Made by a program: the position numbers and the translations under genes
In this document: in pieces, positions 452-7,703 of the stretch
Layout of the letters: each line of letters opens with the position of its first letter
Position numbering within the stretch: position 1 is the first letter of the stretch
Notes under the pieces: generated by a model
What the model saw: only the letters and a program-made list of their open reading frames with translations
What the model was told of the DNA's origin: nothing
The model's database searches: none
From: an uncultured Patescibacteria group bacterium
Lineage (GTDB): Bacteria; Patescibacteriota; Patescibacteriia; UBA2591; CALHIP01
NCBI GenBank assembly: GCA_938030745.1
Contig: CALHIP010000012.1
Coordinates: forward strand, 1-45,690
Direction of reading: 5' to 3'
Length of the DNA: 45,690 nt

Positions 452-2845
452 TTAATACTTTCCTGGATGTTTAATCATATCTTCTAATAATTCAGCTAAG
501 GCTTCGGCAAAATCTTTTTTGCCTTGGCGACGTTCTTCTTCAGTGACTTTTATTTTTGGAAGAGAAAAAGCCGCTTTATAGAAATCTTTTACAAATTCTG
601 TGTCGGGTCCTAATCCTATCCCGAATAATCTTACTTTCTTTTCTTTTGTAATTTTGTTTAAAACTTTTTTGAGACTTTTTGAATCATCTGGTTTTCCATC
701 AGTTAAAGTAATAAGGAAATTGTCCTTGCCTAAATTCTTGAGGAAACTTTTATAAGTTTCATTTGTTGCTTCAGTCGTATTTGTACCTCCGCCACCCCAA
801 GATTTCATTGCCGCCAGCCTATCTCTTACTTTTTTGTTTAATTTTTCTTTCCATCTTTTAAAAGTTTTTACCGAGTCACTAAAGCCAATAATCTCATATT
901 GAATTCCTAATTTTTCTAATACTTCAGCCAATACTACCAATCCTTTAAATGTTTCTTCTATTTTTTCTCCTTTCATTGAACCTGAAAGGTCAACTAAAAT
1001 AGAAAATCGATAATCAAACTTGTGGGGAATGGTTTTTCTTTCCCAGATTTTTCCCAAATATCTTTTATCAGCTTCAGCCTGCATTGCCATTTCTAAATCA
1101 ACTCTTGAACCAGTTGGATAACCCTTTTTCCATTTGGGATGGCGTTCTGGTAAGAAAAATCGCTTGAGCCGAATATAAAGAGAATTAATAATATCAGCCA
1201 CTTCTTCATAAGTTTTATCATATTCAGTCATTTTTTCTTTACGCATTTGTTCTAATTTTTTTTCTAATTCTTTTCTCTCTTTCTCTGTTTTTTCCCTCTC
1301 TTCCTCTGCTTTTTTTTCTTTTTCTTCTCTTTCTCTTCTTTCTTTATGACTTTCAGGTTTATCTTCGTTTAATTTTCCTTCCATTGCTTTATTAACTGCG
1401 TCTTCAAAATCTTCAAGTGTTTCTTGAGCTTTTTCTTTTAACTCTTCTTGTTTTTTTCTTGGTAATTTTTTAAAGAGTTTATCCAGTTCCTGTTTTGTTT
1501 TATCAGATAATTTATCTTCTGGGTAAGGCATTTCTTCACCTGATTCTATTTGCTCTAATGAATCTTGGATATTTTTGAGTTCTTCTTCGGCTTGCTTTTG
1601 CTTCATTTCTTGAGACAGTTTTTCTGCTTTCTTTTCTTGAAGTTGCTTTTCTAATTCTTCTTTTTCTTTGCCGCTGGCTTTTTCTGTTTTTTCTTCTAAT
1701 TCTTTGATTTCTTTCTCTAATTCTTCTTGTCTTTGTCTTGCCCCTTCAATTTGTTTTTCCTTTTCTTCAATCTCTTGATTTAATCTTTCAATTGCTTCTC
1801 TGATTGCTTTATCAATTTGTTCCTGAAGTTCTTTTCTAACATCTTCTGGCAATCCGTTAAATGGATCTAATTCTTTTTCTAAACCTTCAATTTCTTTTTG
1901 AAGTTCTTCTTCTCTTTTTTGGTCTCCTTGATCTCTAGCTTGTTTCAATTCTTCTCTTTTTTGTTCTATTTCTTTTTGTTTTTGCCTAAACTCTTTCATC
2001 ATCTGTCTTTGTTCTTCAGTATGCAAATCCATTTCTACCAATTTTTTCACTTCTGGCCAGATATAATCATGGTATTGTTTAAAGCATTTTTGAGCTATTT
2101 CTATCACCTCTTTTTCTTCAAGACTCCTGTCGGTCGGCGGGATATTGTTTTGATACTCAATAGCGTCTTTTTGGACCCTTTGCAAAAATTTGTGTATTTC
2201 CGGTTTTAGATTTTTGCTGTACACTCCCTTATGCCAAAGACGCACAAGTTCGGAGGCGGCTTCGGCATAACGAGGATATCGACCCAATTTAGAAATTATC
2301 AAATTAACCTCCGGCGCAATAAACTGAGCGTTTTCTTCCTTTAATTGTTCATCATAAAGTTCTTTATTTAATTCGATAAGGGCGGGGAATTTTCGCGTAT
2401 CCCAGTTGTTTACCCTCGGATCTTCCAAACCGATATTTCTGAAAGAATGAAATCCTATATATTCCGACGAGGAAAGTTTTTTGACCTGCTCTTTTGATAA
2501 GCCTATTTCGTGTTCCCCCCTAGTAATCGCCCGATGGCTTCCTTCGTGTGCCGCAATTCTTTTCGCCTTTCGCGGATTTTCTTTTACAAATAAAGGATTA
2601 AAAGTAATACTTCTTTCTGCTACATTTTCAAAAGCAACATAAGGAATTTTTTCTTCCTGGCCGGTTAAAGGATTTATCTCTTTAAGATACGGGGGGCCCT
2701 GTTCAACTTTCATTCCAAAATCACCACCCACTCTTTTGGCAATAATTTCCAAGATTTCCCATTCTTCTTTTGGGATTTCAATTTTTACCTCTTCTTCAGG
2801 CTTTTTGACTTCTTGACTATGAATTTTTTCAAATTCTTCTGACAT
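452..2845 (-). CDS. VWA-domain protein with N-terminal HExxH motif and long Glu/Lys-rich coiled coil (CobT/NorD-like architecture)
   Basis: 797-aa ORF; MIDAS motif VDLSGSM, then GGGGTNTTEA and LTDGKPDD; N-terminal AAHEGSHRA (HExxH); charged heptad-rich middle. Confidence 0.85.
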   Translation of the reverse strand: MSEEFEKIHSQEVKKPEEEVKIEIPKEEWEILEIIAKRVGGDFGMKVEQGPPYLKEINPLTGQEEKIPYVAFENVAERSITFNPLFVKENPRKAKRIAAHEGSHRAITRGEHEIGLSKEQVKKLSSSEYIGFHSFRNIGLEDPRVNNWDTRKFPALIELNKELYDEQLKEENAQFIAPEVNLIISKLGRYPRYAEAASELVRLWHKGVYSKNLKPEIHKFLQRVQKDAIEYQNNIPPTDRSLEEKEVIEIAQKCFKQYHDYIWPEVKKLVEMDLHTEEQRQMMKEFRQKQKEIEQKREELKQARDQGDQKREEELQKEIEGLEKELDPFNGLPEDVRKELQEQIDKAIREAIERLNQEIEEKEKQIEGARQRQEELEKEIKELEEKTEKASGKEKEELEKQLQEKKAEKLSQEMKQKQAEEELKNIQDSLEQIESGEEMPYPEDKLSDKTKQELDKLFKKLPRKKQEELKEKAQETLEDFEDAVNKAMEGKLNEDKPESHKERREREEKEKKAEEEREKTEKERKELEKKLEQMRKEKMTEYDKTYEEVADIINSLYIRLKRFFLPERHPKWKKGYPTGSRVDLEMAMQAEADKRYLGKIWERKTIPHKFDYRFSILVDLSGSMKGEKIEETFKGLVVLAEVLEKLGIQYEIIGFSDSVKTFKRWKEKLNKKVRDRLAAMKSWGGGGTNTTEATNETYKSFLKNLGKDNFLITLTDGKPDDSKSLKKVLNKITKEKKVRLFGIGLGPDTEFVKDFYKAAFSLPKIKVTEEERRQGKKDFAEALAELLEDMIKHPGKY

Positions 2846-3051
2846 AATTATATTATAGCAATATGTTTAGAAAAAGGAACTGATATATCTTAAGTTATAC
2901 TATTCAGGATTTGTCAAAGGCTGCAAAAGGTTGTTTGTTAAATAAATGAAGTAAAATTCAATAATATTAATTTTAGCCTGATTTTTGGAAAAATAGAATT
3001 GGAAATAAAGGTGATTTCCATTTTTATTTTTATACTCCTGATCATTTTTAA

Positions 3052-3207
3052 CCTTCCGCGTTTTTGTCCGCTAAAAATGAATTGTCTGAGCAACAGACCG
3101 CCGCGAATGGCGAGCAGGCTTCAATGTTTGGCGCCGATAAAGAAAAATTAATTTCTCTTAAAAATAGTGAGTTTGAAGCGAATAATGCTGCTGTCTATCC
3201 TGAATAA
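3052..3207 (+). pseudogene. Remnant of a short secreted protein (frameshifted signal peptide)
   Basis: Frame 3052-3207 reads PSAFLSAKNELSEQQTAANGEQASMFGADKEKLISLKNSEFEANNAAVYPE*. Directly upstream, another frame reads KVISIFIFILLIIFNL, a signal-peptide-like segment. Base composition differs from flanks. Confidence 0.4.
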
Positions 3208-3256
3208 AATCCGAACTTTTTTCCACGAAAATCCCGACGCTGAATTTTGATAATTT

Positions 3257-3269
3257 TCGCTCGGGCGGG
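3257..3269 (+). repeat. Inverted repeat, left copy (tcgctcgggcggg)
   Basis: Exact reverse complement of 4812-4824; similarity continues imperfectly inward. Confidence 0.6.
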
Positions 3270-3360
3270 CAAAAGAGAAGAGGTTGGGGGGAAGGAATTT
3301 TTACCCGCCATCGCTTTCGCCGCCGAATTTCGTGCTAACGAAGTTGGTGCGCCATATCTG

Positions 3361-4470
3361 TTATTTTAATCCATTTCCAAAATTTATTCCAACAAAAATT
3401 TTTAATTTATAGCCGAGTGAAACATGCTTTTTCAAAACACTAACATCGGCTTTTAGCTTTTCGTACTTTGTATTCAGATTATTGCCAGCGACACGGATTT
3501 TTTCTTCATACTGCTTAATTGTGTTAAAAAGACTTTCGTTGTAATGATTTAGATTTTGAACGAAATTGTTAAATTGTTTTAGCTCATTTTCAGTTTGACG
3601 AACCGTTTGCTCAAATTCGTCTATATATCCTACCTGATGAAAAGTTGATATTTTGTGTCCGTCTTCTTGGGACATTTTACGGTTTAAATTTTTATCAACA
3701 TATTGAAGATATTTTTGGAAGTAGACCATCATTTTTTTATTCTTTTTCAATTTTTTAGTCAATTCTTTAATCTCGCTGATTAGTTTTTCCTTTGCTTGTT
3801 TATACCTGTTTAGTATTTCCTGAATTTTATTAAAAGCAAAATTAAAATTTTCGTCCGACAAATATCCATAAGTAGTAGTTTCGATTGTAGTTGTCGTCAT
3901 ATTAGATAAAAACCCGTAATCGGTTGAACTATTTGTTTTAATAACTTTCCTTCCGTTTTTTATGACATTGGAAAACCCCAACATCATAGCCGTAATGTCT
4001 GTATAAATTTCGTTATCTTTTTCTTTATGCCAAAGTGAGTGCAAAACAATATGCGAAAGCTCATGAGCCATTACGGCTATAAAGGTCGCTGGATTATCTG
4101 CGCAATCTTCACTAACCCTTACACTTATCGGAAAATTATTTAACCCAGAAGTGCCATACATTGGCAAATATCCAGGTATAGAAACTTGAGCGATTATACC
4201 TTCGCTTCCCCTTCCTCTCCAATCGGTCTTTACCAGATGTGTGCTATGAAAGGCATTCGTATTGCCGGGGTGATAACCCTTCGGCACATACGAAAGATTT
4301 ATTTCTATTGGTAACTTCAAATATTTAGCAATTTCTTTTATGCCTTCCTTAACTTTTCCTTGGCGAATAAGAGATATTATTTTTTGATCGTCTACATTAT
4401 CTTTAATGCCGATCAAATCAGAGAGTGTTTTAATGGCTTCTTCTATGTAATCTTTGCTTATGTTTTCCAT
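3361..4470 (-). CDS. Putative zinc metallopeptidase (HELSH motif) with C-terminal coiled coil
   Basis: 369-aa ORF; AVMAHELSHIVLHSLWHKEKDNEIYTDITAMMLGF is gluzincin/ImmA-like; ATG is a few nt after the end of the shifted XRE frame. Confidence 0.7.
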   Translation of the reverse strand: MENISKDYIEEAIKTLSDLIGIKDNVDDQKIISLIRQGKVKEGIKEIAKYLKLPIEINLSYVPKGYHPGNTNAFHSTHLVKTDWRGRGSEGIIAQVSIPGYLPMYGTSGLNNFPISVRVSEDCADNPATFIAVMAHELSHIVLHSLWHKEKDNEIYTDITAMMLGFSNVIKNGRKVIKTNSSTDYGFLSNMTTTTIETTTYGYLSDENFNFAFNKIQEILNRYKQAKEKLISEIKELTKKLKKNKKMMVYFQKYLQYVDKNLNRKMSQEDGHKISTFHQVGYIDEFEQTVRQTENELKQFNNFVQNLNHYNESLFNTIKQYEEKIRVAGNNLNTKYEKLKADVSVLKKHVSLGYKLKIFVGINFGNGLK

Positions 4471-4477
4471 AAAAGTT

Positions 4478-4680
4478 TTATTTCAATAATTCATCAGCCG
4501 AAACTCCAAGAGCTTCAGCTAATTTTTGAATTGTCGCAAGGGTTGGATTTTTTTCCCGTTTTCAATTCCGCTAATATAAGCTCGGTGAACTTCTAATTTG
4601 CGAGATATTGCGCCTTGCAACAATTTTTTAACGGTTCTTATCCGCTTTAAGTTTTTGCCGAGTTTTGTTGATATTTCCGC
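4478..4680 (-). pseudogene. XRE-family HTH regulator interrupted by a frameshift
   Basis: LGKNLKRIRTVKKLLQGAISRKLEVHRAYISGIENGKK then, in another frame, NPTLATIQKLAEALGVSADELLK*. The switch is at an A7 tract (T7 at plus 4548-4554). The start codon is unclear. Confidence 0.75.
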
Positions 4681-4811
4681 TGAACAAAGGGAGTAAAATT
4701 GTTGGGTGTGTACGGATGGGTGGGGCAAACACAACCCCATATTTTTCCGCGGAGCATTTCGCAAAGCGAGGGTGGGGGTGGAAAGTTCTTTTTCCCAAAC
4801 CCCTTTTCCTT

Positions 4812-4824
4812 CCCGCCCGAGCGA
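4812..4824 (-). repeat. Inverted repeat, right copy (cccgcccgagcga)
   Basis: Exact reverse complement of 3257-3269. Confidence 0.6.
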
Positions 4825-4849
4825 GGTAGGAAACCAAAACTTTATAAAT

Positions 4850-4923
4850 TGGCTGCGGGGCTTGGACTCGAACCAAGATAAGAAGCTCCAAAGGCTTCTG
4901 TCCTACCATTAGACGACCCCGCA
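4850..4923 (-). tRNA. tRNA-Gln (anticodon UUG), CCA encoded
   Basis: Minus strand TGCGGGG TC GTCT AATGGTA GGAC A GAAGC CTTTGGA GCTTC TTAT CTTGG TTCGAGT CCAAG CCCCGCA G CCA folds as a complete cloverleaf; G73 fits Gln. Confidence 0.93.
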
Positions 4924-4962: not shown

Positions 4963-5862
4963 TCAAGAAAAAATGGTTAAAATAAAAAGACCAAGACAGA
5001 TTGAAAAAATACCGAAGATTTTTTGAATAATAACTCTCTTTTCTAACTCCTCTTTAAAAAGATAAGGAAATTTAAAAGAAATTAATAAACTTAAAATAAA
5101 AACAAAAACATATTGGATACCAATTAAAGCATTAATTAAAGCAACGTTGCCTAAAGAAATAGCTGAATTTAAAAGAAAAAAAGCAATAGCTGAAAATCCT
5201 TGATTTGATAGGAAAAGAAAAGAAATTTTTTTTTCAGTTTTTTTCAAAGAATTTAAAATAATTTTTCTTGATTGATTAAAAATTAAAAATCCTAAAGCGA
5301 AAAGGAAACTTCCTAGTCTTATCCAAATAAATCCATTAATAAATGATAATTGCTGATAAACAACCTTAGTTAAAATAAAAAAGAGACTAAAGAGAAAAGA
5401 ACATAAAACAATTAAGGGCCAGTCTTTGATAAAAAATTTTTTCTTTTTTTCTTTAATGACAGTCATTAAAAATCCACCAGAAAGAAGAAAGAAAATAGCA
5501 ATGAGAATTAAAGGAGAAAATTTTTCTTTTAAAATAAGATAACTTAAAGGGATGGAAAAAACAGAAGTAAAACTACCAATTAGAGGAATAACTCGAGAAG
5601 CTTCATTGATTTTTAAGGAAGAAAAAAATAATAAGAGAGCAGCAACAGATAATCCACCAGTAAAGAAAGAAATTATTAAATAATTAAATGATGGTAAGAC
5701 AAAATTGTCAGCAAAAATAAGAAGTAGAGAAAAAATACTAAGAATACTAATATAGAAGGTATAAACAATTGGTTGTGGAATTTTTTTTGAGACTAAAAAT
5801 TTATCAATTAAGACAACGACAGCGCTAAAAAAATAAGAGAGAATAGTAAGAATAAGCCACAT
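4963..5862 (-). CDS. EamA/DMT-family transporter-like membrane protein
   Basis: 299 aa, about 10 hydrophobic segments; FFSAVVVLIDKFLVSKK and IPLSYLILKEK are DMT-like. Confidence 0.75.
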   Translation of the reverse strand: MWLILTILSYFFSAVVVLIDKFLVSKKIPQPIVYTFYISILSIFSLLLIFADNFVLPSFNYLIISFFTGGLSVAALLLFFSSLKINEASRVIPLIGSFTSVFSIPLSYLILKEKFSPLILIAIFFLLSGGFLMTVIKEKKKKFFIKDWPLIVLCSFLFSLFFILTKVVYQQLSFINGFIWIRLGSFLFALGFLIFNQSRKIILNSLKKTEKKISFLFLSNQGFSAIAFFLLNSAISLGNVALINALIGIQYVFVFILSLLISFKFPYLFKEELEKRVIIQKIFGIFSICLGLFILTIFS

Positions 5863-5866
5863 ATTT

Positions 5867-6676
5867 TTAATTTTTTGGTTTATAAAATTTCCACTTTAAA
5901 AAATATTTAATAGCACTTAAAATGTGAATCCAGGTGATCTTAGAAAATAGGGCAAAAATTCCTTCTTGGTCAGCTGATGCTCTTTGATAATAATGGACCA
6001 TACAAGAATCGGGAAAATAAAAAATTTTCCAGCCAGCATTTTTAGCTCTTCGACATAAGTCAACATCTTCAAAATAAAGAAAGAATCTCTCATCAAAAAA
6101 ACCGATCTCATCTAATGTTTTTCTTCTAATCATTAAACAAGCGCCTAAAAGCCAATCAACCTCTTTTTTCTCTAAATGATTAAAATCAGCCATTAAATAT
6201 TCATTAATTTTCTTTTTCGCCCAAGAAAATTTTCTTACAAATGTTCTTCTTAAAATTGGTGTATACCATTTTGGAAAACGAAAACAAGATGGTTGAATAC
6301 TTTTATCAGGATTGATTAATTTTGGCCCACAAATTCCAACTTTTTCATTCTCTTCCATAAACTGATAGAGTTTTTCAATTGAATTCTCTAAGACAACAAT
6401 GTCAGGGTTTAAAATAAGAATGTATTTACCTAAAGAATTTTTAATTCCTAAATTGTTAGCTTTAGCAAATCCTAAATTTTTATTGTTTAAAATAATCTTT
6501 AATTTTTCATTTTTATTTTTTAATTGGCGTAAAAAATCAGGACTACTATCAGCTGAATTGTTATCAACAACAATTATTTCATAGTCTAATTTTGGTTTAA
6601 CTAAATCAATTCCTTTAAGAGATTGTTTTAAAAGATTTTTTTGATTGTAATTAACAATAATAATAGATAAATCCAT
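5867..6676 (-). CDS. Family 2 glycosyltransferase (rhamnosyltransferase-like)
   Basis: MDLSIIIVNYNQ, VVDNNSADSS, ILNPDI, FFLYFEDVDLCRRAKNAGW. Confidence 0.92.
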   Translation of the reverse strand: MDLSIIIVNYNQKNLLKQSLKGIDLVKPKLDYEIIVVDNNSADSSPDFLRQLKNKNEKLKIILNNKNLGFAKANNLGIKNSLGKYILILNPDIVVLENSIEKLYQFMEENEKVGICGPKLINPDKSIQPSCFRFPKWYTPILRRTFVRKFSWAKKKINEYLMADFNHLEKKEVDWLLGACLMIRRKTLDEIGFFDERFFLYFEDVDLCRRAKNAGWKIFYFPDSCMVHYYQRASADQEGIFALFSKITWIHILSAIKYFLKWKFYKPKN

Positions 6677-6680
6677 ATTT

Positions 6681-7703
6681 TTAGTGATAAAATTTTCTTA
6701 TTTCATTTGAAGTAATCAATCTATTTTTCATAATATACTTTCTTTTTTTAAGCATTTGAGGCAATTTTTTAATAATCTCTAAAATTGCTTTTAATGTTGA
6801 TTGTTCAAAAAATAAAATATAAAAAAATTTTTTTAATTCGTAGAAAAAAATAAATGGCAAATCTTTTAAAAAATTTTCAAACGATTCATTTTTAATTAAA
6901 GAAAAAAGATGGTTCCGATAAGAAAGATAATTAATTAATGGTGATTTTTCTCTTCTTCTTTTAATTATCTCTTTAATTTTAAATTTTGTGCCAAAAATTT
7001 GACGATAATGATAAGCAATAGCATTTGGTAAATAAATTATCTTCCAACCACGCCATCTTAAACGATAAGAAAGATCAAAATCTTCTTTATAAGCAAAAAA
7101 ATCTTCATCAAAATATTCATAATACGATCTTAAGTCTTTAGAAATCTTTATATCTTCAAGAGCTTGACGTCGAAAAAGAACACAAGCACCGGAAAGGCCA
7201 AAAACTTCTTCGACTTTATCATATTGTCCTTTATCTAATTCTCCTTCACCTCGATTAATGACTCTTCTTGATTTGAAAATTTTTAGACCAGTTGAATCAA
7301 TAATTTTTGTTTTTACTCTCTCTTCTATTTCTGGCTCAGATGTATAAATTTTTAAAATTTTACCAGAAATTGCTCCAATTTTTTCATCTTTTTCTATTTC
7401 TGATAAAATTTTCTCTAAAAAATCTTCTTTTAAAATAATATCTGGATTTAAAATTAAAACAAATTCAGACTTGGTTAAATTAATTCCCTGATTGTGCGCT
7501 TTAGCAAAACCTAAATTTTTATTATTTTTAAAAATTTTAACTTCTGGAAAATTTTTTTGAAGAAATTCTATTGTTCCATCATTTGATGCATTATCAATTA
7601 CTAAAACAGAAAAATTTTTATATGTCTGAGAAAAAATCGATTTTAAGCAATCAGGCAAAAATTTTAAAGAATTCCAGCTGACAATATGAATAGAGACTTT
7701 CAT
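6681..7703 (-). CDS. Family 2 glycosyltransferase
   Basis: MKVSIHIVSWNS, VIDNASNDGT, LILNPDI, FFAYKEDFDLSYRLRWRGW. Confidence 0.92.
   Translation of the reverse strand: MKVSIHIVSWNSLKFLPDCLKSIFSQTYKNFSVLVIDNASNDGTIEFLQKNFPEVKIFKNNKNLGFAKAHNQGINLTKSEFVLILNPDIILKEDFLEKILSEIEKDEKIGAISGKILKIYTSEPEIEERVKTKIIDSTGLKIFKSRRVINRGEGELDKGQYDKVEEVFGLSGACVLFRRQALEDIKISKDLRSYYEYFDEDFFAYKEDFDLSYRLRWRGWKIIYLPNAIAYHYRQIFGTKFKIKEIIKRRREKSPLINYLSYRNHLFSLIKNESFENFLKDLPFIFFYELKKFFYILFFEQSTLKAILEIIKKLPQMLKKRKYIMKNRLITSNEIRKFYH

Follow-up and report, generated by a model that had tools for sequence, protein, structure and literature searches.

The segment between about position 3189 and the tRNA-Gln gene in the window (the whole 45,690-nt stretch analysed here) is probably a decayed, recombinase-less and non-autonomous copy of a Patescibacteria-wide family of tRNA-targeted integrative cassettes. 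The proposed family layout runs from a tRNA 3′ end through an optional large serine recombinase (LSR) module to a P end, an XRE regulator, cargo and a D end. The sequences show terminal repeats with P/D polarity, the XRE, turnover of cargo and LSR genes beside the ends. They also show LSR genes that converge on tRNA or tmRNA 3′ ends, and inverted repeats that surround LSR modules starting from the tRNA 3′ end; mobility of the family is inferred.

A probable degraded element at the tRNA-Gln 3′ end

The first-pass annotation, made from the window alone, described an exact 13-nt inverted repeat (3257–3269 and 4812–4824) with imperfect inward extension and GC-rich boundaries. All of this was confirmed. 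The repeat is unique within the 760-kb genome, where its arms have no further copy, and extends to ∼61 nt at 73% identity (E = 0.0019 genome-wide), with an alignment score of 57 compared to a maximum of 49 in 500 shuffles. The GC content is 0.52 at the left end and 0.49 at the right, against 0.29 in the window overall. The 13-nt repeat represents the eroded middle of far longer terminal repeats, and the left edge had been placed ∼65 nt too far in, as the repeat reaches ∼3189.

The left end was typed as D (50 vs. 19) and lies on the plus strand. It consists of an outer arm (3189–3256), a terminal-repeat core (3257–3333) and, directly past the cargo stop codon, an inner hairpin (3334–3355; GCTAACGAAGTTGGTGCGCC). 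Positions 3189–3360 align with the D end of L073, a locus from another genus of the same class, at 155 of 172 positions (90%), and positions 3199–3353 with that of L070 at 139 of 155; the left-end alignment scores 227 against a shuffled maximum of 29. The right end was typed as P (38 vs. 12) and lies on the minus strand, with its core at 4752–4824 and an inner module and leader at 4681–4769, upstream of the XRE gene. The latter matches the P end of L137, which has an adjacent LSR, at 76 of 89 positions. The two cores face each other and score 83.4 bits (left, E = 2e-22) and 53.4 bits (right, E = 2.8e-13) with the covariance model R2 (see below); both were among its training sequences, and independent support comes from the alignments to the L073, L070 and L137 ends.

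Beyond the P core, the outer arm is missing and is replaced by the tRNA trailer (4825–4849, minus strand, from CCA to core), as in L074 at tRNA-Ala. Over 34 nt, this trailer shares 91% identity with its tRNA-Gln counterpart in G005. The presumed attachment gene, tRNA-Gln (TTG; 4850–4923, minus strand), was identified by ARAGORN and Rfam, and its encoded CCA end points towards the element. The segment thus abuts the tRNA 3′ end, as previously noted, a position that is one hallmark of tRNA genomic islands. A 23-nt search with up to three mismatches detected no displaced tRNA-Gln fragment at the D side, the repeat test gave nothing significant there, and the window element has no LSR gene.

In the congener G001, the EamA–tRNA-Gln neighbourhood is kept with another gene in between and no repeat, and the 3′ side of its tRNA-Gln could not be aligned to the window. 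In the congener locus L021, a 344-aa glycoside-hydrolase-like ORF (5699–6733) separates EamA from tRNA-Gln; the window lacks this ORF. Near the contig start, the window encodes a 797-aa VWA protein with an HEGSH motif (452–2845, minus strand), absent from the other 25 genomes searched, which is possibly another island gene.

XRE regulator and peptidase

Between the repeats, both on the minus strand, lie an XRE/HTH_3 regulator gene (4478–4690) and a gene for a 369-aa HELSH zinc-peptidase-like protein with a long coiled coil (3361–4470). The previously proposed gene pair is therefore present, but its XRE member is not intact. This gene has the family position beside the P end, and 20–28 of ∼60 residues are identical to the XREs of other elements, but a one-base frameshift in an A-run near 4549–4554 and the absence of an ordinary in-frame start codon indicate that it is probably a pseudogene.

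The idea that the two genes form an XRE–ImmA/IrrE regulatory pair found no support. Searches of Pfam, NCBIfam, PADLOC and PHROGs gave no match connecting the peptidase with ImmA/IrrE, and the XRE is the constant part of the family while the peptidase is one of many interchangeable cargoes. Its sole relative found (60% identical, full-length) is encoded at a contig end in a Dehalococcoidia MAG (L028:125–1249), which suggests inter-phylum transfer or misbinning. No terminal repeat was detected with R2 at this locus, though the gene sits at the contig end. The peptidase gene is absent from the other 96 relatives and 379 genomes of the phylum, and searches of viral, phage and plasmid sequences found no relatives; a weak match in G027 looks by inspection like ribosomal protein L25. 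A single-sequence AlphaFold model of the peptidase had a pLDDT of 42.6, too low to use.

A family of cassettes with polar terminal repeats

BLASTN of the window's right arm against 97 relatives recovered similar sequences (77–79%) in four other genomes. A covariance model built from six repeat copies (R1) matched 32 of 286 genomes of the class, with the matches coming as facing pairs, and one built from 23 copies (R2) matched 48 of 380 genomes of the phylum. Six sequences were used to fit the R1 consensus structure, and single folds were ordinary relative to shuffles; neither was taken as evidence of RNA function. In total, 25 loci have facing repeat pairs 1.5–7 kb apart (24 of 58 fetched loci and the window). 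Pairs in the opposite order in G038 and G146 involve a partial core match or a weak score, and their orientation is uncertain because the core is nearly palindromic. The loci are from metagenome assemblies, and many element ends coincide with contig ends.

These results bear on two outcomes that would have spoken against an element: the repeats are specific and paired rather than ubiquitous low-information sequence, and the window's genes are not syntenic in relatives. Dozens of homologous elements, several with an adjacent LSR, lend strong support to the proposal of a small, integrase-less element that lies at a tRNA 3′ end between inverted repeats. A pattern search for the repeat core in viral contigs found nothing, and the open-licence papers searched contain no description of this XRE-led cassette family.

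The two arms of an element are usually 95–100% identical over 95–245 nt (189/190, 119/119, 142/142, 95/95, 149/150, 152/153, 140/140 and similar). Exceptions are the window (49/58), L105 (144/166) and L072 (153/165), and alignments were short in L096, L147 and L152. All 19 pairs with typable ends combine one P end, on the XRE side, with one D end past the final cargo stop codon. An XRE gene lies inside 21 of the 25 paired elements and, in those with two typable ends, always adjoins the P end; none was found by profile in L096, L102, L143 and L144. In L073, an rve-type transposase gene lies between the XRE and the P end.

The cargo is diverse and includes EcoRI-type and other DNA methyltransferases, CfrBI and ICEA nucleases, HNH proteins, a radical SAM protein, a serpin (L105:9225–10490, Pfam E = 1.8e-116, in a Patescibacteria element), a queuosine salvage protein (L137:134–1096) and an LD-carboxypeptidase with LysE. 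Judged from sequence only, the cargo of L072 (751–6874) combines a proline-tRNA-ligase-like protein with a downstream Liv-type ABC transporter operon. Several cargo proteins have no Pfam family match.

Large serine recombinase genes converge on tRNA ends

The recombinases of L068 and L069 have the Resolvase, Recombinase and Zn-ribbon domains of LSRs. Together with the relatives found using them as queries, LSR genes or remnants occur in 14 loci (L068, L069, L072, L075, L083, L095, L100, L135, L136, L137, L139, L144, L145 and L146). In eight (L068, L069, L100, L136, L139, L144, L145 and L146), the LSR frame reaches or crosses the 3′ end of a tRNA or tmRNA gene that converges with it. The LSR gene of L136 (490–3476) is in two pieces around a 395-aa ORF (2007–3194), possibly an insertion.

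In the seven of these eight loci covered by the test (all except L100), the tRNA end and its flank recur in inverted orientation on the far side of the LSR, beside or within 42 nt of the element end. These inverted repeats begin at the last 4–7 nt of the tRNA or tmRNA and span 91–135 nt at 94.7–100% identity (130/132, 133/134, 91/91, 93/93, 135/135, 108/114 and 107/107), with scores of 182–270 compared to shuffled maxima of 24–33. A similar pair surrounds an eighth module, in L095 (134/135). Around the LSR of L083, we found only a 24-nt inverted match, and in L137 and L135, where the recombinase sides are cut by contig ends, no notable inverted repeat. In several loci, the inverted repeat around the LSR and the P end are immediately adjacent. 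Of the LSR-side element ends that could be typed, seven are P and one, in L083, is D; that of L095 is untyped.

We tested 20 loci for a copy of the tRNA end at the D side. Only three had scores above the shuffled maxima: L145 (55/57), L084 (31/33) and L092 (16/16). The copy in L092 is at the D boundary. In L145 it lies 75–132 nt beyond the D end and so may derive from an earlier event, and the stretch repeated in L084 is tRNA flank, not tRNA. Scores merely equalled the shuffled maximum in L105 (16/18, at the D boundary) and in L074, where the match is the terminal repeat itself. The remaining loci, including the window, have no D-side tRNA-end repeat above shuffled scores. D-side junctions consist of the terminal repeat, a short core (CCACCA in L146, CAAC in L145) and unrelated flank, and no target duplication was seen when element ends and flanks were inspected by eye.

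Proposed mechanism and alternatives

We propose that the LSR acts as the integrase. It would recombine two copies of a short core (CCACCA, CCGCCA or the like), one located at the tRNA 3′ end, where we infer the crossover bases to lie, and the other on the outer edge of a terminal repeat. A circular form would then integrate without target duplication. The inverted flank around the LSR is most simply explained by a circle with two inverted sites, each comprising a terminal repeat, tRNA-end core and LSR flank, one of which would recombine with the tRNA. The XRE may control the cargo, by analogy with the controller proteins of restriction-modification systems. Copies that lack an LSR would depend on a recombinase acting in trans, or be dead. 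Mobilisation of the window copy in trans is plausible, but given its broken XRE and truncated P end, we favour the view that it is dead or dying.

Several observations do not sit easily with tRNA-targeted cassettes. In the window copy, an LSR is absent, the P end is cut short and the D side shows no clear copy of the tRNA-Gln end; elsewhere, most loci lack a D-side tRNA-end repeat above shuffles, and the LSR is beside a D end (L083) or an untyped end (L095). One could instead suppose a transposon family with terminal inverted repeats, moved in trans by a DDE transposase, with LSR elements simply sharing the tRNA hot spot. Such transposons typically have long, near-identical terminal inverted repeats, and L073 carries an rve-type transposase. 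We consider this unlikely, as that transposase was found in one element only, no target duplication was seen by eye and at several loci the P end lies immediately beside the LSR inverted repeat.

It is quite improbable that the repeats are dispersed hairpin sequences between which cassettes are swapped by homologous recombination after DNA uptake. The core is indeed GC-rich and hairpin-forming, and 28 of the first 38 loci have a lone copy, but several lone copies are near contig ends, where assembly would lose an identical partner, and the strict polarity of the typed pairs (19/19) and the constant XRE argue against this scenario. An earlier reading of the repeats as merely dispersed was dropped once the covariance model revealed facing pairs. 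Near-identical inverted repeats beside a serine recombinase might also bound an invertible, phase-variable segment. We regard inversion as highly improbable, since the LSR-side end is nearly always P where it could be typed, and flipping would not obviously switch an XRE whose leader is inside the segment.

For tRNA-targeted cassettes, a complete element can tentatively be pictured as a small circle in which two near-identical inverted sites part the LSR module from the exchangeable XRE-led cargo, an arrangement resembling that of the yeast 2-micron plasmid, and in which the tRNA-targeting LSR would integrate at many tRNA genes. This detailed picture is possible, though we would not yet bet on it.

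Comparison with known systems

Gene acquisition by Patescibacteria is poorly understood. A family found in 11–13% of sampled genomes, with restriction-modification and other cargo, would be a concrete vehicle for it, and the many different tRNA targets could serve genome engineering.

The tRNA and tmRNA islands of the 2014 Islander survey, which have tyrosine integrases, resemble the cassettes in their insertion at tRNA 3′ ends and, in a few loci, in the tRNA-end copy at the far side (PMC4383910). The family differs in that the associated enzyme is an LSR and the cargo lies between long inverted repeats. According to the survey, tRNA genes are not known targets of serine integrases (PMC4383910), whereas the family suggests that LSRs can do so. 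LSR integrative elements share the three-domain recombinase and the lack of an evident target duplication. In contrast to them, the cassettes are small, their LSR module is flanked by inverted repeats and their XRE-led cargo by P/D terminal repeats. MITEs and cargo-bearing non-autonomous transposons likewise have terminal inverted repeats and no transposase, but in the cassettes no target duplication was seen and the inner parts of the P and D ends are unlike. Finally, as in restriction-modification units with a controller (C) protein, a small XRE comes first and is followed by a methyltransferase or nuclease in several elements; unlike in those units, family XREs of the same subfamily also stand ahead of cargo such as radical SAM, queuosine-salvage and LD-carboxypeptidase genes.
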